Positions 1 through 26,971 of a stretch of 26,971 bases of DNA are shown here, in pieces. The first letter of the stretch is position 1, and every line of letters starts with the position of its first letter. The stretch comes from a virus, in the IMG/VR virus record IMGVR_UViG_3300010885_008817, positions 1 through 26,971 of that record; one strand, 5' to 3'. A program made the position numbers and the translations under genes. The notes under the pieces were generated by a model that saw only the letters and a program-made list of their open reading frames with translations, made no database searches and was not told the DNA's origin.

Positions 1-528
1 AAGGATTTTATCAGCCGTGTGCAACCTACTATTTTCTTAAACGGAAACCACGATGACCGCCTCGACCAAATCATCCACGGCTCTACTAGTGGTATGATGG
101 TGGACTACTGCCACGACCTCAAGAACGACATCCACAACCATCTCAAGAAGAATGGCTGTAAGAAGATTTACGATTACCACGCTGAGGATGGCGTACACGC
201 TCTTGGTAAGGTCAAGTTCGTACACGGATATACCTGCGGAACTCGTGCTGTAGAGGAACACGCTATCCACTACGCAGAGCCTCAAGGTGCTGTTATTATG
301 GGTCACCTTCATTCTATCCAGCAGACCAACGCTAAGAAACACGGAGGGGCTGTTGGCTTCTCTGGTGGTTGTCTATGCGTCAAGACGATGGACTATAGTA
401 AGAACCGCCTAGCCACCAGTAAGTGGGGGTCAGGCTGGACTTATGGATTTGTCCAAGGGTCGGATTGGAAAGTGTGGCAGGCTCACCGTGTTGGTAAGAA
501 ATTCATTTACTCTATCAAGGGACTATGA
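1..528 (+). CDS. Calcineurin-like metallophosphoesterase, 5' end cut off
   Basis: The reading frame is open from base 1, so the gene starts outside the window; a GTG at 19 is an internal in-frame codon, not a convincing start. Visible motifs are GNHDD (about 43-57), VHG (about 220-228) and GHLH (301-312). These are the central and C-terminal metal-binding motifs of calcineurin-like phosphoesterases; the N-terminal DxH and GDxxD motifs would lie upstream. Family members hydrolyse phosphodiesters or phosphomonoesters using two metal ions, and phages often carry one among DNA-metabolism genes. The true substrate cannot be told from sequence. The stop TGA overlaps the next start as ATGA, so the two genes are co-translated. 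Codons are C/G-ending (AAC, AAG, CAC, GAC) and GC is clearly higher than in the next two genes, which suggests high expression or a different origin. Confidence 0.88.
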   Translation, partial: KDFISRVQPTIFLNGNHDDRLDQIIHGSTSGMMVDYCHDLKNDIHNHLKKNGCKKIYDYHAEDGVHALGKVKFVHGYTCGTRAVEEHAIHYAEPQGAVIMGHLHSIQQTNAKKHGGAVGFSGGCLCVKTMDYSKNRLATSKWGSGWTYGFVQGSDWKVWQAHRVGKKFIYSIKGL

Positions 529-773
529 ACAATTCTAAACTCAAAAAACTTCAAATGCTTGTCAACAAATGGCAAGTTGAAACTCCAGATAAAAACTTTT
601 ATACTGTTCGTCAGTTAGGTAAAATGTGGAATATAAATCAACGAACTGCTTCAACAAGAATTCAACGCTGTATTGAAGCAGGGTTAATTGAAGTAAAGAA
701 TTTTAGAATTAAATCTGGTATGGTTACTAGACCTATTCCGCATTATAAAATATATGAAGCATCTAGAAAGTAA
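525..773 (+). CDS. Small winged-helix DNA-binding protein
   Basis: This 82-aa basic protein starts at an ATG that overlaps the upstream stop (ATGA). Residues 25-58 read as helix-turn-helix: FYTVRQLGKMW, then a turn (NINQ), then a recognition-like helix RTASTRIQRCIEAGLIEV. A basic segment rich in K, R and P follows and could be a wing. The pattern of alternating small and hydrophobic residues ending in 'GLIEV' is typical of MarR/ArsR-like and phage replication-initiator winged helices. Its role could be regulator of the early operon or a DNA-replication accessory protein; the sequence does not decide. A purine-rich AAGGGA lies just upstream of the ATG, inside the previous gene, and is one of few Shine-Dalgarno-like sites in the window. 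Codon use is AT-rich, unlike the preceding phosphoesterase gene. Confidence 0.7.
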   Translation: MNNSKLKKLQMLVNKWQVETPDKNFYTVRQLGKMWNINQRTASTRIQRCIEAGLIEVKNFRIKSGMVTRPIPHYKIYEASRK

Positions 774-948
774 TCATTTAGTTTGTATTAAATGTAATAC
801 CATTTTGTCAGCCCCAGAAGGTGAGAATCAAAAGAATCAATGCAGATGTTCTAATCGTGCTTGGATTCGGAAACTTCCTGAGAAGAGTCTATGGGCTTAT
901 GGAGCGTTAGACCCTCAACAGATTCAGCGTGTGAAGAAGTTGGCTTAA
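754..948 (+). CDS. Small zinc-ribbon protein (CxxC...CxC), DUF7695-like
   Basis: This 64-aa protein starts at an ATG 20 bases inside the end of the winged-helix gene and is read in another frame. It has two cysteine knuckles: CIKC near residue 11 and CRC near residue 30, followed by a conserved-looking YGALD segment near residue 49. This layout (C.KC, then C.C, then Y-G-x-x-D) resembles the small phage proteins grouped as DUF7695, which I recall rather than searched; their function is unknown and they probably bind one zinc. The last 98 bases overlap the 3' end of the opposite-strand lipoprotein gene. It could be a chance frame, but the ordered cysteines and the tight overlap with its upstream neighbour favour a real gene. 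Confidence 0.65.
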   Translation: MKHLESNHLVCIKCNTILSAPEGENQKNQCRCSNRAWIRKLPEKSLWAYGALDPQQIQRVKKLA

Positions 949-1624
949 GTGAAGTGAATACAGTATAAACTATATCACATATAACTATTACAACAGCAGA
1001 ACCTATTACCCATTGAAACCAGAATGTATCAAGTATCCAACAAGATGAAACAGCCAGTCCTCCACCTATTGACAATACAAATCCTCTGAACTTCCAAGTA
1101 ACTGGTGCAAAGGAAATTATTAACAATCCAAGTACAGCAATTCCAGCACCAACACAAGATACCATCCATAGAATTTTATCTTTTATTTCCCTTTGATTAT
1201 TAGCCTCAACGATTTGCAAGGATATCTTTGCCTTATTGAGTTCGGAGTCTTTTTGTACTATTATAGACCTAAGAGTATCAGCATCATTATTTACTTTAAT
1301 CGCTTCTTTTCTGTCTTGTTCAAGGGCAATGATGTTATCTGATGACAATATCTTTTTAAATCTCTCTGTCGTTTCGACAGACGGTTTCGAGATGGCTGAC
1401 AATCTTTCGATTTGATTTTCGACAAGCCCTTTAGGAATTCCTTCAGGTAAGGTTTGAACCACCGCAACAAGGGCTGATACAGATTCTGAAACTTCTTTTT
1501 CAATCTTATTAATGTATATATCTTTTTCATTATTTTCAAGTATGATAGTAGTTGGTGCAGGAATAGATGTGCAACCAATTAATGTTACAAAAGAAAAAAG
1601 CATTATTAGTTTTTGAAAACTCAT
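851..1624 (-). CDS. Membrane lipoprotein with coiled coil and C-terminal membrane segments; possible unimolecular spanin
   Basis: This 257-aa protein is the last gene of the late operon. It opens with a lipoprotein signal: a K5, a hydrophobic stretch and the lipobox LIGC with C18 as the lipidation site. Residues 30-150 are charged and helical, with likely coiled coil around 100-150. Three hydrophobic segments follow at about 151-173, 179-197 and 203-224, and then a polar tail. A lipid anchor at one end, a periplasmic helix and membrane segments at the other end is the layout of unimolecular spanins (T1 gp11 type), which join outer and inner membranes during lysis. Three membrane segments instead of one is atypical, so this is inference. 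It lies directly after the holin-like gene (ATGA overlap). It ends in TAG, the only TAG stop seen here, and its polar tail is encoded antisense to the zinc-ribbon gene. An unrelated lysis or envelope protein is the alternative. Confidence 0.75.
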   Translation of the reverse strand: MSFQKLIMLFSFVTLIGCTSIPAPTTIILENNEKDIYINKIEKEVSESVSALVAVVQTLPEGIPKGLVENQIERLSAISKPSVETTERFKKILSSDNIIALEQDRKEAIKVNNDADTLRSIIVQKDSELNKAKISLQIVEANNQREIKDKILWMVSCVGAGIAVLGLLIISFAPVTWKFRGFVLSIGGGLAVSSCWILDTFWFQWVIGSAVVIVICDIVYTVFTSLKPTSSHAESVEGLTLHKPIDSSQEVSESKHD

Positions 1625-1926
1625 TTATATTGCTGAGTAAATTTATGTTTAACCCATTCAAAAATGTCTGGGGCAAGTGAACCAGCAGAAGCATATATAA
1701 TGCTTTTTAGCATTGGGTCTATGGTAGAAGAGTTAATAGCAAAGTAGCACAGCGTACCTATAATTGCTCCAGCAATTACTTTTCTAATCCAAATAATAGG
1801 TTTAAACTTTTCCTCAGAGATAACCAGCCTAGCAAAAGCACCCAAGCCTCCTAGGACAGCCACTACCCATCCACCCTTTTTAAAATCTTCTGCTGTCTCA
1901 ATCAGAGTTGGGTCTACAGGACTCAT
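1621..1926 (-). CDS. Holin-like small membrane protein
   Basis: This 101-aa protein has a short polar N-terminus, a glycine-rich membrane segment at about 18-37 (VVAVLGGLGAFARLV), a second at about 49-67 (AGAIIGTLCYFAI) and a third, weaker hydrophobic stretch at about 72-90, then a basic tail (KHKFTQQYK). Size, glycine-rich first helix and charged C-terminus fit class I/II phage holins; the pattern is reminiscent of the LydA/phage-holin-3 type, which I state from memory only. Holins form inner-membrane holes that trigger lysis. Position supports this: it follows the last virion gene (ATGA overlap) and precedes the lipoprotein that may act as spanin. No endolysin gene is visible nearby, so it must be elsewhere in the genome or be part of a virion protein. 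Confidence 0.75.
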   Translation of the reverse strand: MSPVDPTLIETAEDFKKGGWVVAVLGGLGAFARLVISEEKFKPIIWIRKVIAGAIIGTLCYFAINSSTIDPMLKSIIYASAGSLAPDIFEWVKHKFTQQYK

Positions 1927-4900
1927 CGTTTAGGTTCCTCTCTTTGAACTCTACGCTTTGCCTGTTCTTCATTTTTGTAAATACCCATTAATTGTTTGTA
2001 AGGATTATATACTCTAAAATTACCATTCTGTTGCATGATTATCCAGCCTAACGCATTACTTAAACTTGAACCATTACTGTATGTTTCAGTCTTCCAAGAA
2101 CGCCATACACTGATATCAGCCTTAGTGTAATCACGCTTAGGCATTTGTACAGGAGGCTTAGGAACCTTAGTAGGAACTACAGGAGGAACTACAGGAGGAA
2201 CTACAGGAGGAACCTTAGGTTGAACTACAGGAGGAACTATAGGAGGAACTACAGGAGGTACTACAGGAGGTACTATTCTAGGTTTACCTGTTTCTGTATC
2301 AATAATAGGTTTTTTGTTTTCATCTATTTCAATTTTATTACCTTCAATATCTATTATATATTTAGTTCCATCTTCTTCTATATAAATCTTTTGTCCATCT
2401 TCAGTAACTTCATGAGTTCCTGTTTCTGTATCTACAACTGATTCATGCACTTCTTCCTGTACAGGATGTTCATCACCAGTAATAAGTTCATATCTTTGAG
2501 TGTTTTCATTCCACATTCCAGCAGTAACTGGATTTCCTTTATTTGTAAGTAGATGACTTGGAGAAACTTTTTTAATATCTCTTTTTAATCCACTAACATT
2601 TGAAACACTTTGTATAGATGTTTCTTCTAAAGATTTAGGTTTCATTACATCTATTTTAACTGAATTCATTCCTTCAAAACCTATTTTAAGTTTCTTCCAT
2701 ATTTGCCAATCAGATAATCCTTCAAGCGGGCTTTTTTTATTATTTTGAATAGACCATTCATTCATTTTTTCTCTCCATTCATTTACATGAATCTTTTCAT
2801 TTGAATTAAGATATCCTACAGGTCTTTCTGGCAACTTATCATTAACACCTTTTTCATTTTGTAAATCTGTTAAAAGAATATCATTTGGGCTTCTTCTTCC
2901 AGCATCAAGAACATTTGTTATTTCATTTATTAATTGATTAAGTATTGTTTTTGTAGGCTTTGATTCTGAAGTTACAAATTGAGATACTGCCTCTGAAACT
3001 TGATAATTTAAATCACTTATATTAGGAAGTAATCCAGCCTTTATTTCTGGAGTTTCAAGTGATTTAAGTAATTCTGGATGTTCAGGAATAAGTGACCATT
3101 GACCCATTAACTGTGGGTCATTAAATAATGCTATTTGAAATTCAGCCGTAGATATAAGCCTATATACACTTGTTAATTTTAATTCTGGTGATTCAAGTTC
3201 AAATCCTTTTGTATTAAGAAATTGATTTAAATATGAATTAGTTGCTGGTGCATTTGCAGAACCACCAGTTCTATTACTAGACATTGCTTGCCTTGCATAA
3301 TCCCAAGGAGAAGTAACAACATATCCTTTTTCCATATCACCTCTCTTTGAAGAAGGGTTTCCTTTTTCAGTATGAGTAGCCTTATTTAATATAATTCCTT
3401 TTGAAGTCCAAGCAGGTTCTATAGCACCAGTTTTTTCATTTTTAATAAATGTATTTTTAAGCATCAATCTTTGCAGTGCAAGTATTCTTGCAAATGCAAC
3501 TTCTGATTTTGGAAGAGTTATTCCATTTGCAATTCTTAATTCAGTTTTAGATATAAATTCATCAACTCCTCTTGCCCATGGTTGTCCTTTGAGGTTAGAA
3601 CCTTTGTCGGGATTATCATTATAAGTAAAAAGAAGATTTTTAAGTTCTGGATTAGCACCAATTGCATGTGCTTCAGCCTGAGCCAATAAAGAATGACCCA
3701 TTTCTTCAAGTGCTGTTCCTTCAAATGAATGACCAGATAAAGCCTGAACTCTTCTTTTGTATTCACTTCCAGAATAATCACCTATGTTGTATTGGCTTTT
3801 TTGTGCAATCCAAGCCTTATCAATTAACTGTGCTAGATTAAGATGAAACGGTTGATGGCTCTTTCTTTCATTTACTACAATTTGAGCAAATCTAAATTTA
3901 GCATCTTTTTCCTGTTCTTGTTCAACGCCATCTTCTGCTTCTTCATCTCCAGAAATTCGTTGTGTTTTTTTCTTTTTTTCTTCTATTTCAATTTTATTAC
4001 CTTCAATCTGTTTTTTAAGATTTGCTGCTTCTCTTATTGATTCTGGGTCTATTGATTCTACAAGTTGTGCATATCTTTCCTGAAGTGTTGATTCTCTAGT
4101 AACCCTTTCTTCATATTGAGTACCTACTGCAATATCTTTTATTCCTCCATGCCAAGTCTTTCCAGAATTAATATGAACAGGAAGACTTAACTGATTATCT
4201 TCAGCCATAGCCATAAGATATTTTGCAATCTTGCTATGATAATCATTTACAACATTAGGATGAACAGAATCACCCATGTCTGTAATATATTTTAATATAT
4301 CTTTAACAAGTACGGTTGATTTTTTCTTTTGATGATAATCTAAATATTGCCAAAGATTATTAACTCTTGGATTAGGAACTGTTGCAAATGGGTCTTTAGT
4401 TCCTCCAGCATGTCCAACTAAACTTTCAAATAAAGTAGGGTCAAACTGCCTTGACTCTATACCAGATGGAAGGTTATATTTTTCGTAAGTTTTAAATGAA
4501 TCTTTAAATGTTTTATATTCTAAACTATCTGGAGAAAGCATTGATTCTTCACCTCCAGCCTCATGCGGAGAATAACGAGTATTAGGGTCTAGTTCATTTC
4601 TAACAAAAAGAGAGTTCTGTTGTTCTCTAAGTCTATGCTCCATTACCATTCTATCTACAGTTACATAATTTTTTGCCGCAAGTTGTTCAGCCTGAAATCT
4701 TGAAAGTCTAGTAAGGTCTGGAAGAGTATAATATTTATCTCCTCTTATTCTTTCATTTGCTTCAGACGCAGGAATTGTTTCAAAAGATTTTTGTCCTACT
4801 TCGTCTTCAACTTCTCTCATTAATGAACCAAACATCTTTCTTCTTATTCCAACAGGTTCTCTTCCAACAAGCATGCCATCCATATATTTAACATTACTAG

Positions 4901-7900
4901 CCCTTAGCCTTTCAGCCATTTCAGAATAAAGAAGTTTGCCAAAACCTTTTCCTGTAAACTTAGGATTATCAACTGTAGAAAATCCAATAGTTGCGGCATC
5001 TTTAAAACGGTCTATATTTGCAGATATTGTAGCAAAAGAACTTCCATTGCTTCCATCCATATCAGGATGATGAAGTTCTATCTTTAATCTATAAGGAGAA
5101 TTTTGAACAAGTTTAATAGTAAGTTTTCCGTCTGGGTCTATCTTGTCTTTATTTAATTCATGAAATTTTCCTAAAAATGAACTTTTCCATTCACTTGATG
5201 CTAAATCATATTTGCGTCCAAATTCACCTGTCTTATCTCCATCATTCATATTAGATGCAAGAAGAACACTTGAAGGTTCTTTCGATGCTATCTTACGCAT
5301 TGCTTCAGCCGCATCATGAGATGTAGGGAATCTGCCTATTTTATTTCCGTTTTCATCAAATGCATCAGTTTGTCCACCTTTGTATTGAATAGCCCTAAAG
5401 CCAGAAGGATGCCAGAATGTTCGTCCATTAGATGTTTCTTCACTATGCATCTCATTTGGAGACCAATTGCGAACTAAATCTCTATAAGCATTGGCATGCG
5501 TATAAGGAAGACTTTGTGACCTAACACGAACATTTGTCATTCGGTTAAGACTAAAATCAAATACGCTAGACATTGAATTTCTTTTAATCTCAGCAAGAGG
5601 AGAATTCAAAAATGTATCAGCCTCTCCTTTTGCAAGACCAAGAGCCTGATGCATTACATTTCTTCTGTCTTCACCTAAGCCATCAGTCCAAAGTTGTGCA
5701 GATGGAACTCTATCAGCATTAACAGTGCCATCAGGATTAAATGCATTTTTAGATGCATTTTCAAGATATCTATAAAAATCAGCCTTAAATTCTGTAGAGT
5801 TTCCATTCCAAAGTTTCTGAGTATTAGTGTCAGCCCACATATTATTCAAACGCAGTTCAATAACTTTATAATCAAGCATGTTAGCCTTGAATGTATAATC
5901 TCCATCTTTGCTAATGGCTATATCAAGACCATACAATAATCCAGTCCTAGATTTAAATGGAACATTCTTTCCCCATATTCTTGATGGATTATTAACATCT
6001 CCAGCCCTTTCAGCAGTCACTCCAATGCCACCAAAATCAATTAGATTACCTTTGATATCTCCAGAAATAACTTTCTGAGCCATCTTAAGTTTGTTTCCAA
6101 ACTCTCTACTCATATGTCCAGAGTTAATCATTTGGTCAACAAGTTCATCACTAAATGGCCCTCTTATCACTCCTTCACCATCAGTAGTAAATGTACGAAG
6201 ATTATCAGGAACACCTATAAGCATCTTATAGATATTCTTTCCTTTAATCTTATTTTCTTTAGCAATTTGTGCTTCTGTGTTATGCCTATAAGTTCCGTCA
6301 GGCTGTTTTGTAAATACACCATCAAGTCCATTACCATCTATAAATCTTTGTCTGGCATCTTTAGACAAAGCATTGATATCAAAAACTCCAGTTTGATTTA
6401 CATGCCTTTCAATTTTAAGCATATCTTTAAAGAATCGTTCCATAGCAGGATTGATAACTCTACTACCCCTATAAGGTTTAAATACTTCATCAATAGGAAC
6501 AAGTCTTTCTATGCCATCTTTATCAGTATATGTTCTGTTAAAATCAAATTCAGGATGGCTGAAGTTCATTCTATCTCTCCAATATTCAGTCCAAGAAAGA
6601 TTTACATTTTCTAAAACTCCACGAATTCCTGGCAAATCTCCAGCATGATATAGCCAATCTATTGGCTTATTCATTACTAGGTGAGAGAAATAATATGCAC
6701 CAAATTCTTCTGCAAGATGTTCAAGAAGCGGTCTTCCACCAAGTTCAGCATCAGCAACCATTTGACCTCCTTCAGTCCATTTATCTTGAGCCATCTGTAG
6801 ACGCTTTAAAGCATCAGCATGTGCTTCAGGATTTTGACTAAATTCAGCGTCAATATATCTTCTGAACATATCATTGACTTCATTCTGTTTTATAACGCCT
6901 CTTTGAATTTCATTACCAGCGTTATCCCTTTCGCCAAGAATTCTGCTTTTAAGTTCAGAAACATAATAATCTTTCATTACGCTTGTGCGTAGAATTGAAT
7001 GCAAAATTTCGTGAGGAAGAGTAGCCCTAGATGCATTATCTGCATTGATATGTATTTGCACAGAACCATTAGCACTGTTTTCAACTACATATCCATTGTT
7101 ATGTTCAAATGTCTTTTGGCTTAATGGCATATCTCCATCAGGAAGAATAGTCATTCCATCATACTTTTCAGGGTCAAGTCCTTTGCTAAGAAGAAACTCT
7201 TTATTTCCTTCATTAGAACGAATATGAATAGATGTATCAGGATGTACTATATCTTTGGCGGCAAGGATTCCATCAAATGAAAATCCTTTTGCATTTGCCC
7301 ATGTTTCTGCATTTCTCCACATGTTAGCCTGAGCAGGAGCAATTTCATCAAGACCTCTAAGTACAAACTGTGCTTCAATGTTAGTACGCATCTTACGAGT
7401 AGCACCAAAAGCATCAGAAGCCAAGCGTCCAGTAGTAGCACCAATAGAACCTAAAGCCAGACCAGCACCAGCACCAGCGGCGGCTCCTTCAGTTCCTTCA
7501 CTCCACCAACCAAGGCCAGCACCAATAGCAGAACCTGTAAAAGCACCCTCTGCTACATGTGTTCCGTAATCTATAAGTGGGTCAAATCCATTTACAAGTT
7601 TAAGCAAGGCTCTTGCCTGAGGAGATATTTCAACACCTCTTTTTGCTGTCTCATTTAATGCTCTTTTAGCATATGAAGCCAAACCACGCTCTCCCTGAAG
7701 AATCTGGTCTCCAATAAGACCAACAGCCTCTCCTATGCCAGAAGCGGCTACAGAAGCCCCATAGGTGGCAGTACCAACCCCTACAGTTGCAGAAGCATAT
7801 GGTATGCTATGTCCCAATGCAGAAGCACTAAGACTGCCCACGCCAGCGGCTTTAAGGCCATTTCTGAAGTCATCTTTAGATACTCCAGCAATAGCCTCAA

Positions 7901-12376: not shown

Positions 12377-12379
12377 AAA

Positions 12380-13333: not shown

Positions 13334-13334
13334 G

Positions 13335-13766: not shown

Positions 13767-13767
13767 A

Positions 13768-14808: not shown

Positions 14809-14809
14809 G

Positions 14810-16932: not shown

Positions 16933-17168
16933 TACTTAATAGGATGCTTAGGAAGTTCAGGAGCAATAGGAGCAGGAGTATACTTCCAGCCCTTAACTTT
17001 AATGTCAGCAAGTGCAGAAGCATTAGTGTTATAAATAGTAGCATCCCAAGCAGTAAAAATGCGTGTAGGCTTGTCTGCAGGAGCGTCTTTAAGTAGCATA
17101 ACAGAACCGTTATCCACAAGGACGCAGGTCTTGCCAGCGGGAAGAATAATATCTTTAGGTGTATTCAT
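16932..17168 (-). CDS. Unrecognised 78-aa protein with Pro-rich tail
   Basis: This small protein lies between the 603-aa fibre and the membrane microprotein. Residues 1-65 look beta-rich (DIILPAGKTCVLVDNGSVML, then RIFTAWDATIYN), and the C-terminus is proline-rich and basic (YTPAPIAPELPKHPIK). There is no signal peptide or membrane segment. Position among tail genes suggests a minor virion protein or a fibre-associated protein (chaperone or adaptor), but this is only context. The start ATG is nine bases after the fibre stop, in AT-rich sequence without Shine-Dalgarno motif. Its stop forms TAATG with the next start. Confidence 0.72.
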   Translation of the reverse strand: MNTPKDIILPAGKTCVLVDNGSVMLLKDAPADKPTRIFTAWDATIYNTNASALADIKVKGWKYTPAPIAPELPKHPIK

Positions 17169-17177
17169 AAGTATAAA

Positions 17178-18989: not shown

Positions 18990-19306
18990 TAAACTTCAGA
19001 ATAAGCAAGGTGAATAGGAGTTGCATCAACAGACGCATTGACACGAATAATTCCCATATAATTTTCAATAGAAAATAATTGACCAGCAGAAATCCTAATT
19101 CCATTGTCACCAGTAGAATTAAAAATAACTTCAATTGTTGCACCAGTTGTAGACTTATTTTGAACAATTACATTAATACGCTTAACGCCTACAAGAGCCG
19201 CCGCAAGAATTTCTGTGCTAGAGCCTGCTGTTGCAATCGTATCTATAGTTCCATCTTCATGTGTAAAACTACGAAGAAATGGAGAGGATGTTTGAATTAT
19301 CGACAT
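18989..19306 (-). CDS. Small beta-rich virion protein (105 aa)
   Basis: I do not recognise a named family. The protein is beta-rich: after SFTHEDGTIDTIATAGSSTE come strands such as VKRINVIVQNKSTTGATIEV and GIRISAGQLFSIENYMGII, ending in VNASVDATPIHLAYSEV. It looks like one compact jelly-roll or sandwich domain, similar in style to small phage decoration or fibre-attachment proteins. It has no signal peptide or membrane helix. It lies between the gp11-like tail protein (three-base gap) and the large fibre (TAATG overlap), so a role in attaching the fibre to the tail is plausible. That is inference from order only. Confidence 0.72.
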   Translation of the reverse strand: MSIIQTSSPFLRSFTHEDGTIDTIATAGSSTEILAAALVGVKRINVIVQNKSTTGATIEVIFNSTGDNGIRISAGQLFSIENYMGIIRVNASVDATPIHLAYSEV

Positions 19307-19309
19307 AAA

Positions 19310-20104
19310 TTAGTAAGTTTTGTACATATTGATTCTTCCGAATTGTCCCTGCTGACGCAAGAACTTATCATATTCTAAGTCAAGAACTTCTTTTGACTTT
19401 GCTTCAAGTGAGGCGGCTTCTACAACCATTGTTTCAGATACAAACCAGTTAGCCGCCGCACCCCAAGACATATACATACCAAATATGTAAGGTATATTTA
19501 TTTTAGTCCAAGCAGTAGGTGTGTTATTAGGATTTTGTCCAGCAATAGTAGAAGGAACATTACATATGTAAAAATTTCCGCTATGAGGTTTTCCAAGAAC
19601 AGGCATTAAAGCACCTGTGCCAGAACCAGAATCAAAGTAAATCTGAACACCTTGAAAATAGGTCACAGCAGGGTCATAAGGGTCTCCTGTAAGGGCTGGA
19701 ACTGGAAGTCGGTATAGATACCAGCCTTCAGATATAATGCTCATTACAATGACCTTTTTGACGGTTCCGCTGTCGTATAATGTGTATCCAATTTGGACTG
19801 CTCTAGTTGAATCCAATGGATTTCTATTCCAAACACCAAGAACTTCACTAGCAAGCGGGTCTTGTACAAAATAAGTAACTCCGTTGTCTTGAAGACTAGG
19901 TGGCCCTTCTGGTGGGTCAGTTTGTGTAGTAAAGTATTGCAGACGGACTACATCGTTCCATTGATTAGATTCCCAAGCCTCTTTTAGTCGGAATTGAGCA
20001 AAATCTCTAAATTGAGCAAATGTATCAGCATTTATGTTATTCCTATCGTTGCCAGTAAATTGTACTGCATCGAATAGAACTTGGCTGAAATCAACTGTTC
20101 TCAT
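19310..20104 (-). CDS. Tail tubular protein A / head-tail adaptor (T7 gp11-like)
   Basis: This 264-aa protein has an N-terminal helix pair with FAQFRDFAQFRLKEAWESNQW, a pattern that recurs in gp11-like adaptor proteins (helix, then 'R...A...aW....W'). A beta-rich middle (about 60-200) follows, with repeated Y, P and G, for example VTYFQGVQIYFDSGSGTGAL. A C-terminal helix (FVSETMVVEAASLEAKSKEV, then LDLEYDKFLRQQGQ) ends the protein. In T7-like phages gp11 forms the dodecameric ring between portal and nozzle. The long beta insertion is larger than the T7 protein (196 aa) and could form a docking site for the adjacent fibre. The start ATG overlaps the upstream stop (ATGA). Confidence 0.75.
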   Translation of the reverse strand: MRTVDFSQVLFDAVQFTGNDRNNINADTFAQFRDFAQFRLKEAWESNQWNDVVRLQYFTTQTDPPEGPPSLQDNGVTYFVQDPLASEVLGVWNRNPLDSTRAVQIGYTLYDSGTVKKVIVMSIISEGWYLYRLPVPALTGDPYDPAVTYFQGVQIYFDSGSGTGALMPVLGKPHSGNFYICNVPSTIAGQNPNNTPTAWTKINIPYIFGMYMSWGAAANWFVSETMVVEAASLEAKSKEVLDLEYDKFLRQQGQFGRINMYKTY

Positions 20105-20466
20105 TTAGTTAAGAAACCGTCTGCGGTGAATATATGACCATTCACTACGGTCTTTTTGGCATAGTTGCGAACTGCCGTTTCTGGGTTATCTCTTAGGAAT
20201 TCTTTCAGAAATGTATCATCCTCCCAGCATTCATATCCTAGTCGATGGCCCCAATAATGCCACGATGTAGCAGGAATTTTCGCTATTGGTCTGCCGATGC
20301 CATCGACAGCCTTATGTTCATTAAATCTATCAAAATGACCGCTTTGTTTAGCAGTCTTTCTAGCATCAACTTCTTGCATTCTCCAACCATGGAGGAGTTC
20401 CTCCTTAACCCTATTTCTAAGGTCGGGAGGAACTGCCTCTGCCAGACTTTCGATAAAGTCTGACAC
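20101..20466 (-). CDS. Conserved-type protein after major capsid, function unknown
   Basis: From a GTG at 20466, seven bases after the capsid stop, this is a 121-aa protein; the frame also stays open to a TTG at 20541 inside the capsid gene (146 aa). I prefer GTG because all other junctions here are short gaps or tiny overlaps, but no Shine-Dalgarno site helps to decide. The N-terminal half is helical (SDFIESLAEAVPP, RNRVKEELLHGWRM). The second half has a compact motif series: AVDGIGRPIAKIPATSWHYW, GYECWEDDTFLKEFLRDNPE. Proteins with this tail region occur next to capsid genes of other phages, as far as I recall. A head-completion or capsid-accessory role is inferred from position. The stop overlaps the gp11-like start (ATGA). 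It shares the higher GC of the capsid gene. Confidence 0.72.
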   Translation of the reverse strand: MSDFIESLAEAVPPDLRNRVKEELLHGWRMQEVDARKTAKQSGHFDRFNEHKAVDGIGRPIAKIPATSWHYWGHRLGYECWEDDTFLKEFLRDNPETAVRNYAKKTVVNGHIFTADGFLTK

Positions 20467-20473
20467 GGATTGG

Positions 20474-21511
20474 TTAGGCCGAGAAGTTAAACACGCCGAA
20501 TGCCAAAGGATTGTAGACGCAAAGTCCAGCAACCGCTTCAATCATTCTCGCTTCACCGCCACCGTAGTTCGGGAGAGCAGTCACGCCAGCAACATTGCCG
20601 CCATAACGAACTTCCAGAAGGTCGAACGGAATAACGAAACCCTTATGAACATCACCAATACCAGAACCATCAATATTGATGAAATGCGAAGGGTGAAGTC
20701 TCAACTTACCGAAATCGCCTTCAAAGATATCAACCGAGGAGATGTAGGTAGAGGCATCCGATTCTCTGTTAAGAGTGCGGATAGCAGACTGGGTGTTGGT
20801 GGAGCCAGAAGAAGGAGTCGTGTAAGCAAGATTCGTAAAGGCTCTCTTAAGTGCAGAACCGCAAACGAGGTCAAAGTCACGGAACTGACCAGTCTGTGTG
20901 TAGATACCTGTGAGGACATTCTGAACAACAGTTTCAGTTAGAGCCGCAGTGCCGACAGTCGAAATATTGGCTGTAGGAGTCTGGAAGGCCGCAGGAATAG
21001 CATGAGTAGGGTCTTGACCACCACTGCCAGCCGCTTCAAGCCACTTACCAAGACCTCTGGTGAGGTAAGGGTCTGTGCCATCATCAGCCTGCATAGCGTT
21101 GTTGGAAGAGATAGTGCTTTCCATGTCACGCTTAAGTCCCTGAATGCCCTTAGCAACATTGTTAGCAAGTTCATCACGGACACCAGCAACAACAGCGATA
21201 TCCTGAGTAAGAGGAGACACACGGACTGCTCTACGGAAAATCTGGATGTAGTTGCTCAGTTCAGCACGATAAACGGTAGCACCATCCTTGACATAGTTTT
21301 CATAGGAAGTAACATCCGTACCATCGACTGTACCAGTTGTTCTGGGAGTCGGGAGACGGTCTGCCTGCCATCTGAAAAGAGTATTTCCAGGTTTGCTACC
21401 CTTCTTCGCCATGGAAGTGATTGGGGTGTCTTTTGCATCGACCATCGAGATGAGGTCTGCGAGTTCTTCTCTCTTACCAGACGAGAAGGAGGGTTCTGTT
21501 AGATTAGCCAT
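20474..21511 (-). CDS. Major capsid protein, SU10/DUF5309-type HK97 fold
   Basis: This 345-aa protein begins with REELADLISMVDAKDTPITS followed by LFRWQADRLPTP, the N-arm signature of the SU10-type capsid family (DUF5309), which has the HK97 fold. Later come the spine-helix region (VRDELANNVAKGIQGLKRDM), FDLVCGSALKRAF and the C-terminal YGGGEARMIEAVAGLCVYNP segment near the end of the coat domain. Hundreds of copies would form the icosahedral shell. It follows the scaffold gene by 21 bases. Codons are strongly C/G-ending compared with the tail genes, as expected for the most abundant virion protein. TATAAT (21515-21520, - strand) lies three bases before the ATG; it is more likely AT-rich start context than a promoter. 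Confidence 0.92.
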   Translation of the reverse strand: MANLTEPSFSSGKREELADLISMVDAKDTPITSMAKKGSKPGNTLFRWQADRLPTPRTTGTVDGTDVTSYENYVKDGATVYRAELSNYIQIFRRAVRVSPLTQDIAVVAGVRDELANNVAKGIQGLKRDMESTISSNNAMQADDGTDPYLTRGLGKWLEAAGSGGQDPTHAIPAAFQTPTANISTVGTAALTETVVQNVLTGIYTQTGQFRDFDLVCGSALKRAFTNLAYTTPSSGSTNTQSAIRTLNRESDASTYISSVDIFEGDFGKLRLHPSHFINIDGSGIGDVHKGFVIPFDLLEVRYGGNVAGVTALPNYGGGEARMIEAVAGLCVYNPLAFGVFNFSA

Positions 21512-21532
21512 AGTATTATATAGGTTTGTAGA

Positions 21533-22543
21533 TTACAGGAATCGGTTTGCAATTATAGATGAAAGGTCATCTCTGTTACCAGAATTCAGAAAACGCTTCT
21601 GAGCCGTATTCGATTGAACTTGCTTTTCAGTAAGTCTAGCGGGTGAGGCTGAAGCCCTAGGTTGTAGTGGTGCTTTTGCTGTAGAGCCTTTTGTATTGCT
21701 CTTTATTGAAGCCTCTCTGGATTTTACTCCTCGGATATAATCTCCAAGCACCATCTTATAGTCAGGAAATCTTTGTATCTCTGGGAAGTGCTTCATGAAT
21801 GTCTCTGCGATTTGTCTCTCAGTAGAACTCCTGTCCTTCCACCATGGATACTCTTTGTTAGCGACTTGTTCAATCTGCATAAAGTTATTCAGGTAATTCA
21901 TTCTCTTAGGAAGATGCTCTTCAAGTGCATCCATCGCTTTGATTTTGATTTTCCGAACTTCTTCAGCAGTATATTCAATTTCGTCACCATCATTTTTCCT
22001 GACAACAGCACCATCGGGATTCATTTCGCACCATCTGCGAATCTGCTTGGCTTGGTCAGCCTCACGATTCACTTCATCAGGAGTTGATAAGTTGGAGTAA
22101 GGATTATCTCTAGTTGGAACCTGTGCTGGCTTTACAGCCTCTTGGCTCAGTCGTTCCATTTCGTTTTTAAGCCTGTCAACCTCAGCCTCTGCTTCTCTCC
22201 GTTTTGCGGTGAGTTTGTCGATGCGTTTCTTTACACCCTTTGGCAATCCCCTTTCAAAATCATCATCTTCGGACTTGGTTTCTTCGGTTTCCTCGGAGTC
22301 CTCGGTCTGATTTTGTTCGGGTTCTGTTTCTGTTAACTTTGAATGAACATCACTATTCTCGGAGTCTGCGGACTCCGCTTCAGAATTTTGGGAATCTGAA
22401 GGTTCCTCACTCTCCTTGCCTCCTAGGAGCGTCTCGCTAACAATGTCAGCAAGTCTGTTATTATCAAATCTCTGGGCTAGAGATTCGTTCTTCGTGGGGT
22501 TATTTGATTCCGTCCCAAGGTCGGATGATTCGTTGTTTTCCAT
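21533..22543 (-). CDS. Scaffolding protein
   Basis: This 336-aa protein has a very acidic N-terminal half (about 40-105; runs of E, D and S such as EETEETKSEDDDFERGL). A basic coiled coil follows (about 105-140: VKKRIDKLTAKRREAEAEVD). The middle has helical segments (RKIKIKAMDALEEHL, KRMNYLNNFMQIEQ) and PWWKDRSSTERQI. The C-terminus is basic (TKGSTAKAPLQPRASASP, then NRDDLSSIIANRFL). Acidic start, central coiled coil and basic end immediately upstream of the major capsid gene is the standard profile of phage scaffolds, which guide procapsid assembly and are then removed. The basic C-terminus would contact the coat protein. No protease motif is visible. It is preceded by a 121-base gap with a candidate promoter. 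Confidence 0.85.
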   Translation of the reverse strand: MENNESSDLGTESNNPTKNESLAQRFDNNRLADIVSETLLGGKESEEPSDSQNSEAESADSENSDVHSKLTETEPEQNQTEDSEETEETKSEDDDFERGLPKGVKKRIDKLTAKRREAEAEVDRLKNEMERLSQEAVKPAQVPTRDNPYSNLSTPDEVNREADQAKQIRRWCEMNPDGAVVRKNDGDEIEYTAEEVRKIKIKAMDALEEHLPKRMNYLNNFMQIEQVANKEYPWWKDRSSTERQIAETFMKHFPEIQRFPDYKMVLGDYIRGVKSREASIKSNTKGSTAKAPLQPRASASPARLTEKQVQSNTAQKRFLNSGNRDDLSSIIANRFL

Positions 22544-22589
22544 TAGATAAAGGTCTAAAGTCCTATATTACTATAGCAGGGTTTTTTGG

Positions 22590-22607
22590 ATTAGTCCCAG
22601 AACTAAT
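22590..22607. other. Short inverted repeat in scaffold leader
   Basis: ATTAGT (22590-22595) and ACTAAT (22602-22607) are perfect inverted arms around a six-base loop (CCCAGA). In the predicted leader of the scaffold mRNA this could fold as a small hairpin. No U-tract follows on either strand, so it is not a normal terminator; it could be an operator-like dyad. Confidence 0.45.
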
Positions 22608-22620
22608 TGCAGTTAAAACC

Positions 22621-22644
22621 GCAAATTATAAAAAAGCAAATTAT
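22621..22644. repeat. Direct repeat GCAAATTAT x2, 15-base period
   Basis: GCAAATTAT occurs at 22621-22629 and again at 22636-22644 on the + strand, inside the candidate promoter. The two copies flank the spacer and the -10 element and could be a regulator-binding pair; in AT-rich sequence they may also be chance. Confidence 0.5.
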
Positions 22645-22653
22645 TTCTTTAAA
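22625..22653 (-). promoter_or_regulatory. Candidate sigma70-type promoter before scaffold/capsid genes
   Basis: On the - strand TTTAAA (22648-22653) and a perfect TATAAT (22625-22630) are separated by 17 bases (22631-22647), good sigma70-like spacing. It lies between the stop of the 83-aa gene and the scaffold ATG at 22543, leaving a leader of about 75 bases. This is the largest gap in the late operon, so a separate promoter for abundant capsid proteins makes sense. The region is AT-rich, so a chance match cannot be excluded, and a Bacteroidota-type host would use a different consensus. Confidence 0.4.
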
Positions 22654-22664
22654 AAGCCAATTTC

Positions 22665-22916
22665 TTACGAACCACCCTCAGGAGGTCTTCCTTGGTCAAT
22701 AAGTACTTCATTTCTAGTATTCATAAGAACATCCTTAAATGCCATAAGAGCGTCAGCCCTTCCAGCATGCCATGCTCTATCTTCTCCTTTGTTTTCCTTA
22801 GATAAAGCAGTGGAAATCTCTGACTCAATAGATGCATCTAGAATCATGTGAATAGCCTTCCATGTGATATGGTTAGTTTCAAAGGCAAAACCATGTATGA
22901 TTTCTTGTGGTAGCAT
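22665..22916 (-). CDS. Unrecognised 83-aa protein between portal and scaffold
   Basis: This protein is mostly alpha-helical: EIIHGFAFETNHITWKAIHM, then SIESEISTALSK, then AWHAGRADALMAFKDVLMN, with a Pro/Gly-rich tail (RPPEGGS). Small helical proteins with a central 'GRADAL'-like motif are familiar between portal and scaffold genes of other podoviruses, but I know no assigned function. A minor head protein or an assembly factor is plausible. Its ATG overlaps the portal stop as TAATG, so it is probably translated by ribosomes that finished the portal. The gene ends before the 121-base gap. Confidence 0.78.
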   Translation of the reverse strand: MLPQEIIHGFAFETNHITWKAIHMILDASIESEISTALSKENKGEDRAWHAGRADALMAFKDVLMNTRNEVLIDQGRPPEGGS

Positions 22917-25114
22917 TATTGCTGTTGAGGTTGCTGTTGGTCAGCCTGTTTAATTTGTCCCTGCATTTGCTGTGCCGCTTGTTGTGCTACTGGAGTTACC
23001 CCAGTTTTGCCAATTTGCTTGTTTTGCTGTTGCATAACAGACATTTGAAGATTCTTTACATAGTTCTCAAGTAAAGCCCTGAAATGTTGGTCAGATTGCA
23101 TCTGTTGCTGTGCTTTGGGGTTTTTGCCCATAATATCTTGCAAATACTGTAGTTTAGTAGGTGCAGATGGGTCATTTTCAACATAATTAGCCTCATTTCC
23201 AAGCATCATTAGTCCAATATCAGATTGTGTATCTTTATACATCATTTGAGATGCTGTAGCACTTTCAACAATCAAATCCTTGGCCTTGTCTGGGTCAATA
23301 GCCTCAATAGCCGCCTTGACAAGTTTAGTCTTATCAATAACGCCAGCAGAATCAAGTGGCATAACAAATTGCATGATGGCTTTTAGTTTTTCCATTACAA
23401 AATCCGTATCAAGTTCACGAACATCATATTTAACCTGAAAATCATACTGACTAGATATGCTAGAAAGATTTTGAGGAATAGGTTTATTTGTTATATTTTG
23501 AATTTCAGCAGAATCCATGTACTGAAGCATTAAACTAAATATCATATTAAATGTTTCACTCCAAACATCAAGCCAACCATTAACAACAAACTGTTGTGTA
23601 GTCTGTGTTTTTGCTGGCATCACATTAGGATGATACATTCCAAAATAAGAAGCATGATTTTGTTCAACTCTTTCAATTAAAGCAAAAGCCGTTGTTGTAT
23701 CTCCAGTAGGAGTAGGCATGAATCTATAATCATCAGGAGAAGTAACAGGTAAATGAATTCCTGGCCCTATTTTGTTAATTCCACCAAGTCTTTTCTTAAC
23801 AAGAATTGGAGGCATCGTTGTAAACGCAGTTCTATCACGAATTGAATCATGCTGTGCTTTAATTTCTTCTTGGTCAGTAACAGCAACTTCTGGAACGCTT
23901 CTAGATTCCTGAATAGGTCTACGAATACGCTCTCTACGATAAATTATGAAAGGATATTCGTTGTGAGCATAACCTAAAAGTTTATGACTAGCAAAAATTT
24001 CACTTCCAGCCCTAGGACAAAATATAGTGCAATAAACTCCTTGAACATTGTCTTCATCAAGCAATTTAGAATATGCATATACGATTTCAATCATATGCAT
24101 CTGACGATTAATCTGATAATTAATTAAAGAAGCCGCAGGAAGGATGTTAGGGTCATGGAAATTAGAACGAAGACCAGCAACACTTACTGCTTCCTGAACA
24201 AACTCATCACTCCATCCTTCTTTTTCAGCCATGGAACGAAGTTCCATTTCAGACATAAAACACCGTCTAAAAATAACTCTAGCATCCTGAATTTCGATTG
24301 TTTCAGGAGGAAAAGAAATTTCATCAAAAGGCTTTAATGCACTTATTGCAGGAAGATTCTTAGATTGATAAACTTCAGGAATTTGACATTTGCCAGTTTC
24401 ACGAAGGTCTATTACTCCTTTAATTGTATCTTTTTGTTTAATTGTACTAAGGAATGATTCAAGAAGACTTACCGCAAAATCCTGTTGAGCAGGGTCAAGA
24501 ATAGCCGCTGGCAAAGCCTTCATCAAACTATTAGGATTCTGTTGCATAACAGTCTGAACCATTTGATTAATATCATCCATAGTAGTGGTCTGATATCTAA
24601 TTGAGTCTTCCTGCTCCCAAATTACATGTAATCCAGCCCAACCATATTGCATTGTATATTGTGCAAGAAGTTCGGCTTCATTTCTAATTTCTTTTCTTTT
24701 CTTAGACTGAGTATACCACTCCATGAGTATATTTGCTGAACTAGCAAAATCATAATCATCAAATACAGTTCCTTTAACCTTAACCTTACATCTATCAAAT
24801 GTAGTCATGAGCATGGAAACCATGTCATTAATTGTTCTATCAATTATTCTAACACGAACATCAGATGCTCCTTCAAATGGGAAAGCCCCATCTCCTTCCA
24901 TTCTGTTTTCACTGTGTTTCTTTCCATCTCTTGTCTGACCAGTCCATCTAGAAAGACGAATATCGTCATTTTCCATGATGTTAGCGACATTGCCGCCATT
25001 CTGAGTAGAACGATTATATTCCTGAAAGAGATATCTTACATCTGGAACATCAGTAGCATAAACCAGTTTATCTTGACTGGAATTATACTTAGTGTAATCA
25101 ATATATTTTGACAT
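22916..25114 (-). CDS. Portal protein
   Basis: This 732-aa protein follows the terminase and HTH genes and precedes the scaffold, the standard portal position. N-terminal parts fit podovirus portals: SRWTGQTRDGKKHSE, GAFPFEGASDVRVRIIDRTI, then a helical wing (FASSANILMEWYTQSKKRKE). Further on are RRCFMSEMELRSMAEKEGW, the stem/crown-like region with YNEYPFIIYRRERI-type sequence near 375-390, and KKRLGGINKIGPGIHLPV. The last 80 residues are Q-rich (for example AQQAAQQMQGQIKQADQQQP) and may form the barrel or a flexible tail inside the head. Twelve copies would form the DNA channel at one vertex and bind terminase and the gp11-like adaptor. The start overlaps the HTH gene by 17 bases and has no Shine-Dalgarno site. 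Confidence 0.88.
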   Translation of the reverse strand: MSKYIDYTKYNSSQDKLVYATDVPDVRYLFQEYNRSTQNGGNVANIMENDDIRLSRWTGQTRDGKKHSENRMEGDGAFPFEGASDVRVRIIDRTINDMVSMLMTTFDRCKVKVKGTVFDDYDFASSANILMEWYTQSKKRKEIRNEAELLAQYTMQYGWAGLHVIWEQEDSIRYQTTTMDDINQMVQTVMQQNPNSLMKALPAAILDPAQQDFAVSLLESFLSTIKQKDTIKGVIDLRETGKCQIPEVYQSKNLPAISALKPFDEISFPPETIEIQDARVIFRRCFMSEMELRSMAEKEGWSDEFVQEAVSVAGLRSNFHDPNILPAASLINYQINRQMHMIEIVYAYSKLLDEDNVQGVYCTIFCPRAGSEIFASHKLLGYAHNEYPFIIYRRERIRRPIQESRSVPEVAVTDQEEIKAQHDSIRDRTAFTTMPPILVKKRLGGINKIGPGIHLPVTSPDDYRFMPTPTGDTTTAFALIERVEQNHASYFGMYHPNVMPAKTQTTQQFVVNGWLDVWSETFNMIFSLMLQYMDSAEIQNITNKPIPQNLSSISSQYDFQVKYDVRELDTDFVMEKLKAIMQFVMPLDSAGVIDKTKLVKAAIEAIDPDKAKDLIVESATASQMMYKDTQSDIGLMMLGNEANYVENDPSAPTKLQYLQDIMGKNPKAQQQMQSDQHFRALLENYVKNLQMSVMQQQNKQIGKTGVTPVAQQAAQQMQGQIKQADQQQPQQQ

Positions 25115-25280
25115 AAATTAGTTTTAATAGGTCATCACGAAAATAACGCTTGTGTCCGCATTTTGTGGTTATTGTCTTAACCTTTTCTGTTTTAATAATA
25201 CTTTCAAGTTTATTTCTGCTAAATCCAGTAAACGCCATTGCTTTTTTTCTAGATAAAAATGTAGGATAGAATATTTCCAT
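25098..25280 (-). CDS. Small excisionase/MerR-type HTH protein between terminase and portal
   Basis: From the ATG at 25280, which shares one base with the terminase stop (TAATG), this is a 60-aa protein; the frame stays open upstream inside the terminase gene, but the TAATG junction marks the start. The sequence (FLSRKKAMAFTGFSRNKLES, then IIKTEKVKTITTKCGHKRYF, then RDDLLKLI) matches the excisionase/MerR-type winged helix (HTH_17): first helix pair, a wing with K-x-G-x-x-R-Y/F and a last helix beginning R-x-D-L. Such proteins bind DNA. In this slot it could recognise packaging sites (a small-terminase stand-in) or regulate late genes. The GGAGGAAG before the ATG encodes terminase residues GGS and may act as a Shine-Dalgarno by chance. 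It overlaps the portal start by 17 bases. Confidence 0.8.
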   Translation of the reverse strand: MEIFYPTFLSRKKAMAFTGFSRNKLESIIKTEKVKTITTKCGHKRYFRDDLLKLIYVKIY

Positions 25281-26887
25281 TAGTAACTTCCTCCACCCCA
25301 ACTCTTCATTGCTGAGTTTCCTTGATACTGCAAGTCCATGACCATTAAGTACCTCAAGCAGTCTATTGGGTCTTTTGTTGCCCCCTTTTCGCCATCTTGA
25401 CCTGTCCACTCTTTCAGTGAGTATATTAAATTTTGACATTGTTCGCTAATATATAGTTTAGGTTTATTTTCTTCAGATAGGTCTTTAGCCATATCAAATG
25501 CAAATCCGTCATTAATCATAGCAATTCCTTGCTCTATTCGGATTCCAGCAGAAGGCTGAAAATGCATTGGTATTTCCCCATCGTCAAGCATATCTATTAG
25601 GGTTATTCCACCTTCATCTGTTACAGCCTTTGTGCCTCCAGCCCTAGGGTCAATATAACGCTCCCATATTTCTTCTCCACGCTCAAGTGTTAATATAAGT
25701 TCTTTATATTCATGTAAACTTCGTCCTGCGTTATTACGCTGGGCTGTTCCAGCCTTACCGTCTGCATCAGATGAAGGAACTGCCCATTCACCTTCGCTCT
25801 CATCTGGAAATTCACGATATATATACATACTGCCATCTTTAGTAACTCGCATCCAAAGCATAAACCAATTTCTTGCTCCAGCAGGGTCAACTACCATGTA
25901 GTTAGTTCCTTCCTCTGGTACTTTATCAGCAGATACAATATTAAGTTCAGGGCTAAATCTTGGAAATTGATTACCACTTACATTATCAGCCCAACCATAT
26001 GCACGAATTTTAATTTCATATGGTTTCTTTCCAGACAACATCTTTTTTAACTGATTAAATGGATTGTATGGATTCAGTTGACTATGAAACCACATCACTG
26101 CATGGCTTCTGATACTTCCTTTGGCCTTATATGGCATATGTCCCCTAGGACAACCCATGACATTAATCATGTCTGGCAATAAGTCGCTTTGTTTTGTTTC
26201 AATAAACTTAGAATTACTTACATAATCCTTAACTACTGGAGTGTATCCAGAAATAGGAGTAAATGTTATAAGCAACTTTCCCATTCTAGTAACAATACGA
26301 TATCTTAAAGTTTCAATCCAATCCATTGGTACAAGTTCATCACACCAAATAAAATCGACCTCACCACCTTCAATAACATCACGCTTTTGAGCGTAGTTCA
26401 TAAAGAAACACTGACTTTTGTTTGGAAGAATAAAAGTATTATCGCTGAATCCATTCTTTTGAGTGTACTGAACATTTTGAATCTTATTCTTTTTAAGTTC
26501 TTTAAATTCACTAGGAAGATACTTATAAATTACATTCTGTTGCATCTGAATGCTTGATTGATTAGTAGTATGTAAACACCAGATTCTTGCATCCTTAATA
26601 TTAATCAAAGATTGAACAACTCTTTTAGCGGCCCATTCTGTTTTAGACGCTCTGTTACCTCCAAGAATTAATAACTCGTTATTTTCTTTAAGTAGTTCGT
26701 CTGCCTCCTTCCAATGTGGAAGGTCGAATCCATGTCTATATGGGTCAAGTTTTTCTGCTAGGATTTTATCCTCACGCAGATTAAGCAATTCCATGACTTT
26801 ACGCTCACCATGCTTTTCAACTAAAGTTTTTAATTCATCCTGATTAGGTACAATCAGAATAGGATGAGGCGTAGGCTCAAAAGACAT
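25280..26887 (-). CDS. terL: Terminase large subunit (ATPase and nuclease)
   Basis: This 535-aa protein is the DNA-packaging motor. The ATPase half has Walker A GGNRASKT (76-83), Walker B with the catalytic acid VDFIWCDE (177-184) and the coupling motif LLITFTP (205-211). The RNase H-like nuclease half has VVDPAG with D334, YIDPRAG with D413 and KDPIDCLRYL with D507/D510 as likely metal ligands. Length is normal for the family. It cuts concatemeric DNA and pumps it through the portal. No recognisable small terminase precedes it here; the tRNA gene is only 16 bases upstream, so any terS lies elsewhere or is replaced by the HTH protein that follows. The start ATG has an AT-rich leader without Shine-Dalgarno site. 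Confidence 0.95.
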   Translation of the reverse strand: MSFEPTPHPILIVPNQDELKTLVEKHGERKVMELLNLREDKILAEKLDPYRHGFDLPHWKEADELLKENNELLILGGNRASKTEWAAKRVVQSLINIKDARIWCLHTTNQSSIQMQQNVIYKYLPSEFKELKKNKIQNVQYTQKNGFSDNTFILPNKSQCFFMNYAQKRDVIEGGEVDFIWCDELVPMDWIETLRYRIVTRMGKLLITFTPISGYTPVVKDYVSNSKFIETKQSDLLPDMINVMGCPRGHMPYKAKGSIRSHAVMWFHSQLNPYNPFNQLKKMLSGKKPYEIKIRAYGWADNVSGNQFPRFSPELNIVSADKVPEEGTNYMVVDPAGARNWFMLWMRVTKDGSMYIYREFPDESEGEWAVPSSDADGKAGTAQRNNAGRSLHEYKELILTLERGEEIWERYIDPRAGGTKAVTDEGGITLIDMLDDGEIPMHFQPSAGIRIEQGIAMINDGFAFDMAKDLSEENKPKLYISEQCQNLIYSLKEWTGQDGEKGATKDPIDCLRYLMVMDLQYQGNSAMKSWGGGSY

Positions 26888-26903
26888 TATTGTTAGCCAT
26901 AAA

Positions 26904-26971
26904 TGGAGCCTTGAATTGGGATTGAACCAATGACCTACGGTTTACAAAACCGTTGCACTACCACTGTGCTA
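26904..26971 (-). tRNA. tRNA-Thr (anticodon UGU), 5' end cut off
   Basis: Read on the - strand, the sequence from 26971 folds as a tRNA from position 8 onward: D stem GCAC/GTGC, anticodon stem ACGGT/ACCGT with loop TTTGTAA, five-base variable loop AGGTC, T arm ATTGG-TTCAATC-CCAAT, 3' acceptor strand TCAAGGC, discriminator T and an encoded CCA (26904-26906). The anticodon TGT (26944-26946 on the + strand as ACA) reads ACA threonine codons, which are frequent in this AT-rich phage. Only the seven bases of the 5' acceptor strand (expected GCCTTGA) are outside the window. It lies 16 bases upstream of the terminase ATG and probably shares its transcript. Confidence 0.93.

Follow-up and report, generated by a model that had tools for sequence, protein, structure and literature searches.

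The window, that is, the whole 26,971-nt stretch of viral DNA analysed here (positions 1..26971 of IMG/VR record IMGVR_UViG_3300010885_008817, which consists of this fragment only), raises the question why six palindromic tetramers, GATC, AGCT, ACGT, GCGC, CGCG and CCGG, should be missing from it. The fragment itself is best explained as the structural half of a tailed phage of roughly 41 kb. A first-pass annotation had noted the six absences and had attributed them to long exposure of the phage to the restriction systems of its hosts, which it would evade by losing sites rather than by modifying them.

Six tetramers are absent from the window

Counting of all 256 tetramers yielded zero copies of each of the six words and of no other tetramer. 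Under a dinucleotide Markov model, 90 GATC, 133 AGCT, 29 ACGT, 20 GCGC, 8 CGCG and 16 CCGG sites were expected. A second expectation was obtained by codon permutation, in which the synonymous codons of 17 window genes (25,266 nt) were shuffled in 500 runs while proteins and codon usage remained unchanged. The permuted genes contained on average 79.5 GATC, 143.9 AGCT, 47.5 ACGT, 21.0 GCGC, 8.5 CGCG and 15.2 CCGG sites, and zero was never reached, the minima being 61, 111, 32, 11, 3 and 6, respectively. Thus, the loss is independent of codon usage and protein sequence. The expected counts estimated beforehand from rough base frequencies were about right, apart from that of AGCT, which had been set too low. 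The remaining ten palindromic tetramers are all present, among them TGCA (147 observed/147 expected), CTAG (80/92), GTAC (47/52), CATG (70/120), TCGA (23/42) and GGCC (17/40), so that the loss is selective, as had been proposed. The GC-richer capsid genes were likewise correctly said to obey the rule, since the window-wide count of zero includes the capsid region (43–45% GC). The absence of the six words is therefore real, window-wide and selective.

The same six words are at zero in G001, a 41,189-bp IMG/VR contig that matches the window in 14 of 14 sampled 40-mers and appears to be a complete genome because it carries a 123-base end repeat. The expected counts in G001 are 149 for GATC, 215 for AGCT, 48 for ACGT, 44 for GCGC, 19 for CGCG and 35 for CCGG. 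All six words thus fall within the range defined as elimination in PMC6286503 (observed/expected <0.1, expected >15), here calculated with Markov expectations instead of that paper's own statistic; in the window alone, the expectation for CGCG is only 8.

The list of six proved to be incomplete. Counted on both strands, the window is also depleted in GCWGC (2 observed/37 expected), CCWGG (3/29), GGWCC (0/19) and ACGGG (0/9), and the corresponding values for G001 are 2/69, 3/55, 0/35 and 1/18. In the coding sequence of G001, codon permutation gave expectations of 56.5 for GCWGC (2 observed), 19.5 for CCWGG (3), 15.8 for GGWCC (0) and 14.2 for ACGGG (0). A greedy caller applied to 2,960 motifs (expected ≥10, observed at most one tenth of this, p<1e-8) returned 9 motifs in G001, where ACGGG fails the cut, and 5 in the shorter window. 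On Markov simulations, eight for each of three genomes, the caller returned no motif in 24 out of 24 cases.

Relatives, control contigs and lineage-specific switching

Relatives were sought in IMG/VR using the large terminase subunit of the window as query, and the same protein served as the basis of the tree. In a first scan, 237 of 238 stretches were confirmed as relatives and the best 80 were kept; a profile scan, in which at least 585 of 600 stretches were confirmed, again had 80 kept, 10 of these being new. The resulting 90 loci are the closest members of a group that is larger still; some are almost identical to the window, and 72 distinct terminases are encoded among them. Their GC content ranges from 37% to 63% at terminase identities of 74–100%. 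Elimination was scored among loci with an expectation of at least 10. AGCT was eliminated in 90/90 clade loci, GATC in 89/90, GCGC in 81/81, CGCG in 73/76, CCGG in 70/83, ACGT in 61/84, GGCC in 52/87 and CATG in 34/90. Elimination was rare for GTAC (2/85), ATAT (2/84), CTAG (1/86), AATT (1/90) and TATA (1/80), and was found in no clade locus for TCGA, TGCA and TTAA. Altogether, 557 of 1,373 tests of palindromic tetramers in the clade scored as eliminated, compared to 2 of 21,186 tests of non-palindromic ones.

As controls, 39 contigs of the same collection were drawn via an arbitrary 16-mer. Here, elimination was scored in 36/508 tests of palindromes and in 15/8,232 tests of non-palindromic tetramers, with a maximum of five eliminated palindromes per contig and none at all in 23 contigs. 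Four control contigs (L160, L164, L173 and L178) have the loss of GATC, AGCT, ACGT and TCGA in common; they may be related to each other and perhaps form a second lineage of this type. Since every relative is a metagenome contig, the pattern might be suspected to arise during library preparation or assembly, for example if the source DNA had been digested or masked. We regard such an artefact as practically negligible, given the 23 unaffected controls from the same collection and given sample 3300021961, which yielded locus L031 with 44 GATC sites (48 expected) and yet also L063 (0/24) and L066 (0/21).

The greedy caller returned 7–17 motifs in 23 clade records (G001–G020, G022, G025 and G032), a set that includes near relatives of each other and from which G029 was omitted. 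The 88-kb record G021 (L133–L137), with 18 motifs, was kept apart from this range because it looks like two related phages joined; its halves have 2,341 30-mers in common, and GGCC is present in roughly the first half and nearly gone from the second. Among the phages used for comparison, the distantly related C75C1 gave 4 motifs. A further 13 named phages, which were hand-picked and are not a random sample, ranged from 0 to 6: eight gave 0, 0, 1, 1, 1, 2, 4 and 5, and the others were KHP30 with 1, A-4L with 5, Pf-WMP3 with 2, Mic1 with 6 and FCL-2 with 0. With a fixed list of 24 motifs and a laxer cut, Mic1 scored 8, HTVC106P 6, A-4L 5, VPp1 4 and Ma-LMM01 0. As the comparison phages range widely under both callers, multi-site loss is a gradient, and the clade is topmost among the phages compared. 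In Phormidium phage Pf-WMP3 (L208, first 43 kb), the affected words include AATT (0/92), GGCC (3/52) and GGWCC (0/49).

A different set of words is lost in G006 (39 kb, 57% GC), which lacks AATT (0/102), ATAT (0/34), TATA (0/22) and CTAG (0/71); the codon-permutation expectations are 65, 49, 41 and 32, respectively. TTAA (42/65) and all 12 non-palindromic A/T tetramers are present in this genome, and ACGT (178/149), CCGG (397/282) and GGCC (388/229) exceed expectation. ATAT and TATA are also at zero, with small expectations, in the G006 relatives L076–L078, and some copies are retained in L079, L080 and L128–L130; ATAT is at zero in two control contigs as well (L176, 0/10.5; L184, 0/12.4). These data bear on the idea that a mutational or compositional bias, or a structural dislike of palindromes, empties the genomes of such words without any restriction. 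TCGA (19 vs 34.0 by codon permutation) and GTAC (45 vs 77.5) are somewhat low too, and several non-palindromic words are strongly low on one strand, for example CACA. Still, the missing words do not occur even once although other words of identical composition are frequent, the lost set varies among close relatives, and G006 keeps three GC-containing palindromes at or above expectation but loses four others; a bias of this kind is very improbable as the cause. On the + strand of the window, CACA occurs 23 times (120 expected under the Markov model) and CTCA 56 times (134 expected); most genes lie on the - strand.

The distribution of the losses was mapped on the terminase protein tree (90 rows; rapid tree-building method; stars on 27 of the 69 inner branches), in which a state was left unscored at 15%–40% of expectation or at an expectation <10. 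The minimum number of state changes was 10 for ACSGT, 8 each for GGCC, CATG, CASTG and CCTGA, 7 for ACGGG, 6 for GGNNCC, 5 for ACGT, 4 each for GGWCC and CGWCG, and 2 for GTAC, counts in which parsimony does not distinguish loss from gain; GGSCC and CCSGG overlap shorter motifs. One change each was sufficient for GATC, CGCG, CCGG, CTAG, AATT, ATAT and TATA, and AGCT, GCGC, GCWGC and CCWGG were never present in any scored member.

The switching was also apparent in aligned pairs. None of 39 GATC sites of L031 is kept in L028, compared to 401 of 707 control words of the same composition, and none of 29 ACGT sites of L009 is kept in L008 (controls, 345/826). The differing sites are mostly one substitution apart: 31 of the 39 GATC sites and 25 of the 29 ACGT sites differ by a single substitution. 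Comparisons of GGCC pointed in the same direction but were weaker (0/16, control 18/55; 0/14, control 11/58). In four genomes, non-palindromic tetramers that a single mismatch separates from a lost word exceeded expectation by 7–13%, and the observed/expected ratio of the others was about 1.0. Long exposure is therefore too static a description: several sites switch among close relatives and GATC is present in L031, so that part of the lost set probably tracks recent hosts.

Restriction by hosts and competing explanations

The selective, codon-independent and lineage-specific pattern is best explained by loss of restriction sites, as first suggested, and we conclude that Type II sites of the hosts have very probably been removed from the phage genome. 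The lost motifs match the known sites of MboI, AluI, HhaI, HpaII, HaeIII, NlaIII, ApeKI/TseI and EcoRII, and further those of AvaII, NlaIV, TspRI and Hpy99I. That restriction enzymes were the agent, which enzymes these were and in which direction each change occurred is what we infer from these patterns. Phage DNA entering the cell unmodified would be cut at these sites by host enzymes, and genomes with fewer sites would survive more often until eventually none remain; in a lineage meeting hosts that lack a given enzyme, the site could drift back. Besides the six palindromic tetramers, the removed set would include at least GCWGC, CCWGG and GGWCC and probably ACGGG, and removal would proceed largely via single substitutions.

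Escape would take place by site loss and not by modification, because methyltransferases of the three families searched (PF01555, PF00145 and PF02086) were found in none of 37 clade records, a result that is firm only for the longer records since 20 of the 37 are shorter than 34 kb. A motif scan of the open reading frames (ORFs) of 16 long genomes and the window revealed no convincing methyltransferase either. C75C1, by comparison, has a PF00145 enzyme and retains AGCT, ACGT, GCGC and CGCG. The proposal that sites are lost rather than modified is in good agreement with these results. ArdC domains occur in four of the 37 clade records (G002, G012, G020 and G021) and ArdA domains in four others (G004, G011, G014 and G035), and neither was found in G001. 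Their occurrence points to a lineage under restriction pressure. It fits a division in which Type II systems are answered by site loss and other systems, in some members, by inhibitor proteins, the second half of which follows from the known roles of these families. A lone PAPS reductase-like gene with a weak family match to SspD is present in G006 (L094, 7911–8768) and in G010.

Alternatively, nucleases made by the phages themselves could cut host DNA at these words, and the phage genome would then have to be free of them. Annotation of 82 of the 161 representative proteins with Pfam, PHROGs and PADLOC yielded 16 Pfam families and 52 PHROGs families, 25 of the latter listed. Endonuclease VII-like, exonuclease VIII-like and other PD-(D/E)XK proteins are indeed encoded in the clade, and G006, the sole long genome keeping CCGG, is also the only one to lack the conserved clusters 8 (a metallophosphoesterase) and 10. 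Against this, no restriction enzyme family (and no integrase) was found by Pfam among the 82 proteins, and ten or more specificities would require equally many enzymes. Furthermore, a gene–motif association test on the 16 long genomes found, for 10 of 11 variable motifs, no cluster that was present in all avoiders and in no non-avoider; this test, whose clusters come from BLAST comparison of ORFs predicted with a simple finder, is uninformative on words lost in all members. We consider phage nucleases an improbable source of the pattern.

Removal of host restriction sites could also be driven by a broad host range rather than by a single restriction-rich host group. The wide GC spread among relatives of 74–100% terminase identity is in line with this, as is the stronger avoidance of 6-bp targets in broad-host-range plasmids described in the available text of PMC10359461. 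The constant core of AGCT, GCGC, GCWGC and CCWGG, however, suggests a common host group. A broad host range appears possible but less likely than not.

Several points weigh against restriction by the hosts as the agent. We know of no restriction enzyme for ATAT, TATA, ACSGT, CCTGA or ACGGG. Because no host was identified, not one enzyme was matched to one word. No scored member, at any GC content between 37% and 63%, has kept any of the four core motifs, so that the same enzymes would have to recur in all hosts. Phage KHP30 has lost only a single motif according to the greedy caller, although its host group, Helicobacter pylori, is known for many 4-bp systems, 10 of 11 observed 4-bp targets being targeted in this species according to the part of PMC10359461 available; restriction-rich hosts therefore do not always cause such loss. 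Finally, most lost motifs are palindromic, and the asymmetric CCTGA and ACGGG, lost in subsets of the clade, fit less well with the avoidance of mostly orthodox Type II sites set out in the available text of PMC6286503.

The same words permit a tentative reading, in which the specificities of the hosts' restriction systems, some of them possibly undescribed, can be read off from the clade. It is based on the zero counts of ATAT and TATA in G006, where other A/T tetramers are present, and on the losses of ACSGT, CCTGA and ACGGG. If this is true, loss of these five words predicts undiscovered restriction enzymes in the hosts or, as an alternative prediction, another sequence-specific nuclease defence. 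A search of the literature for ATAT and TATA as restriction targets turned up nothing on the subject, which is weak evidence.

The phage, its hosts and known systems

The gene for the large terminase subunit is located at 25280..26887 on the - strand, as are the other genes named here. Its product matches PF03237 slightly below the cut-off (E 1.7e-4; 21.7 bits, cut-off 22) and is 20% identical to annotated large terminases and 33% to that of C75C1. The probable portal protein (22916..25114) was named from gene order; it has no Pfam family, is 27% identical to an unnamed C75C1 protein and has a cluster member in 16 of 16 long genomes. Gene order also suggested the probable scaffold protein (21533..22543), whose cluster 5 is represented in 15 of the 16 genomes; upstream of its ATG, GGACTTTAGACCT is kept in 13 of 15 genomes. 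The major capsid protein (20474..21511) matches SU10_MCP (PF17236, E 1.1e-46), placing the phage among those with SU10-type capsids. Immediately 5' of the capsid ATG, a CCTATATA-like box occurs in most of the 16 genomes and resembles the -10 element of a leaderless transcript. The window also contains additional structural genes and encodes two giant proteins, one of 1,202 and one of 2,281 residues. A search for tRNA genes in the window found none.

Searches for a host gave few leads. A terminase profile search of species-level bacterial genomes produced 67 pattern stretches, none confirmed as a relative, and an endonuclease VII profile produced 40 stretches with one 37% match in Aquisediminimonas, too distant for naming a host. 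When the DnaC-like loader, ArdC, the exonuclease, PAPS reductase, ArdA and Erf were used as protein queries, only distant matches in mixed taxa were returned, and a search with a 103-residue early protein returned no match. For ArdC, matches occurred in 2,976 plasmid records from a wide range of taxa, and the first nine listed comprised eight from Hymenobacter and one from Spirosoma at 36–40% identity. Shine-Dalgarno-like motifs precede the first starts of 3–21% of long ORFs in the clade (G001–G015 and G020), compared to a background of 7–14%, 33–65% in eight reference phages and 2% in Flavobacterium phage FCL-2; when any of the first four starts was allowed, the clade (10–66%) overlapped the references (36–74%). 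The near-background motif frequencies, together with ArdC matches leaning to Hymenobacter, weakly suggest that the hosts are Bacteroidota or another lineage not using Shine-Dalgarno-like motifs. A cyanobacterial host was considered since the cyanophages Mic1 and A-4L have several lost sites in common with the clade, but it was judged unproven: in six freshwater cyanophages and in KBS-S-2A, ribosome-binding motifs exceed background (26–52% of ORFs), whereas the clade, at first starts, is closer to FCL-2.

The pattern of loss in the lineage apparently reflects the restriction enzymes present in its hosts. Through the repeated switching between sister lineages, restriction pressure can be studied as a phylogenetic character, and host enzymes, some of them possibly new, might be predicted from the virus sequence alone, which would help to identify the host. 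Neither such mosaic switching nor a loss of ATAT and TATA was described in the literature examined, and no paper on the clade was found.

C75C1 (OQ984151) is the nearest named phage, with identities of 33% in the terminase, 33% in the capsid and 27% in the portal region. Like the clade, it is devoid or nearly devoid of GATC (0/106), GGCC (2/61) and CASTG (0/61); unlike the clade, it keeps AGCT (214/219), GCWGC (76/57) and CCWGG (42/37) and possesses a C5 methyltransferase. Overlapping losses were also found in the cyanophages Mic1 (first 50 kb; GATC, CCWGG, GGCC, GGWCC, GCWGC and CGCG) and A-4L (GATC, GGCC, GGWCC, GGYRCC and GWGCWC). Both phages differ from the clade in retaining AGCT and ACGT and in having ribosome-binding motifs that exceed background. 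In the small plasmids of PMC10359461, as far as the available text describes them, site avoidance takes the place of protective genes, as in the clade, but the host-range effects concern 6-bp and not 4-bp palindromes.

The closest parallel is that of Rusinov et al. 2018 (PMC6286503), in whose available text roughly one in ten viral genomes is reported to show complete or near-complete site elimination, chiefly at orthodox Type II sites and in non-temperate phages. In those phages as in the clade, short and for the most part palindromic sites have almost completely disappeared from double-stranded DNA genomes that lack modification enzymes of their own. In the sections at hand, that study matched sites to host enzymes and counted site–genome pairs; the clade, known here from phage sequence alone, differs by 7–17 lost motifs per record, by loss across a whole clade and by switching between sisters. 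Site elimination itself is thus already established, and the clade is a new and extreme case of it.

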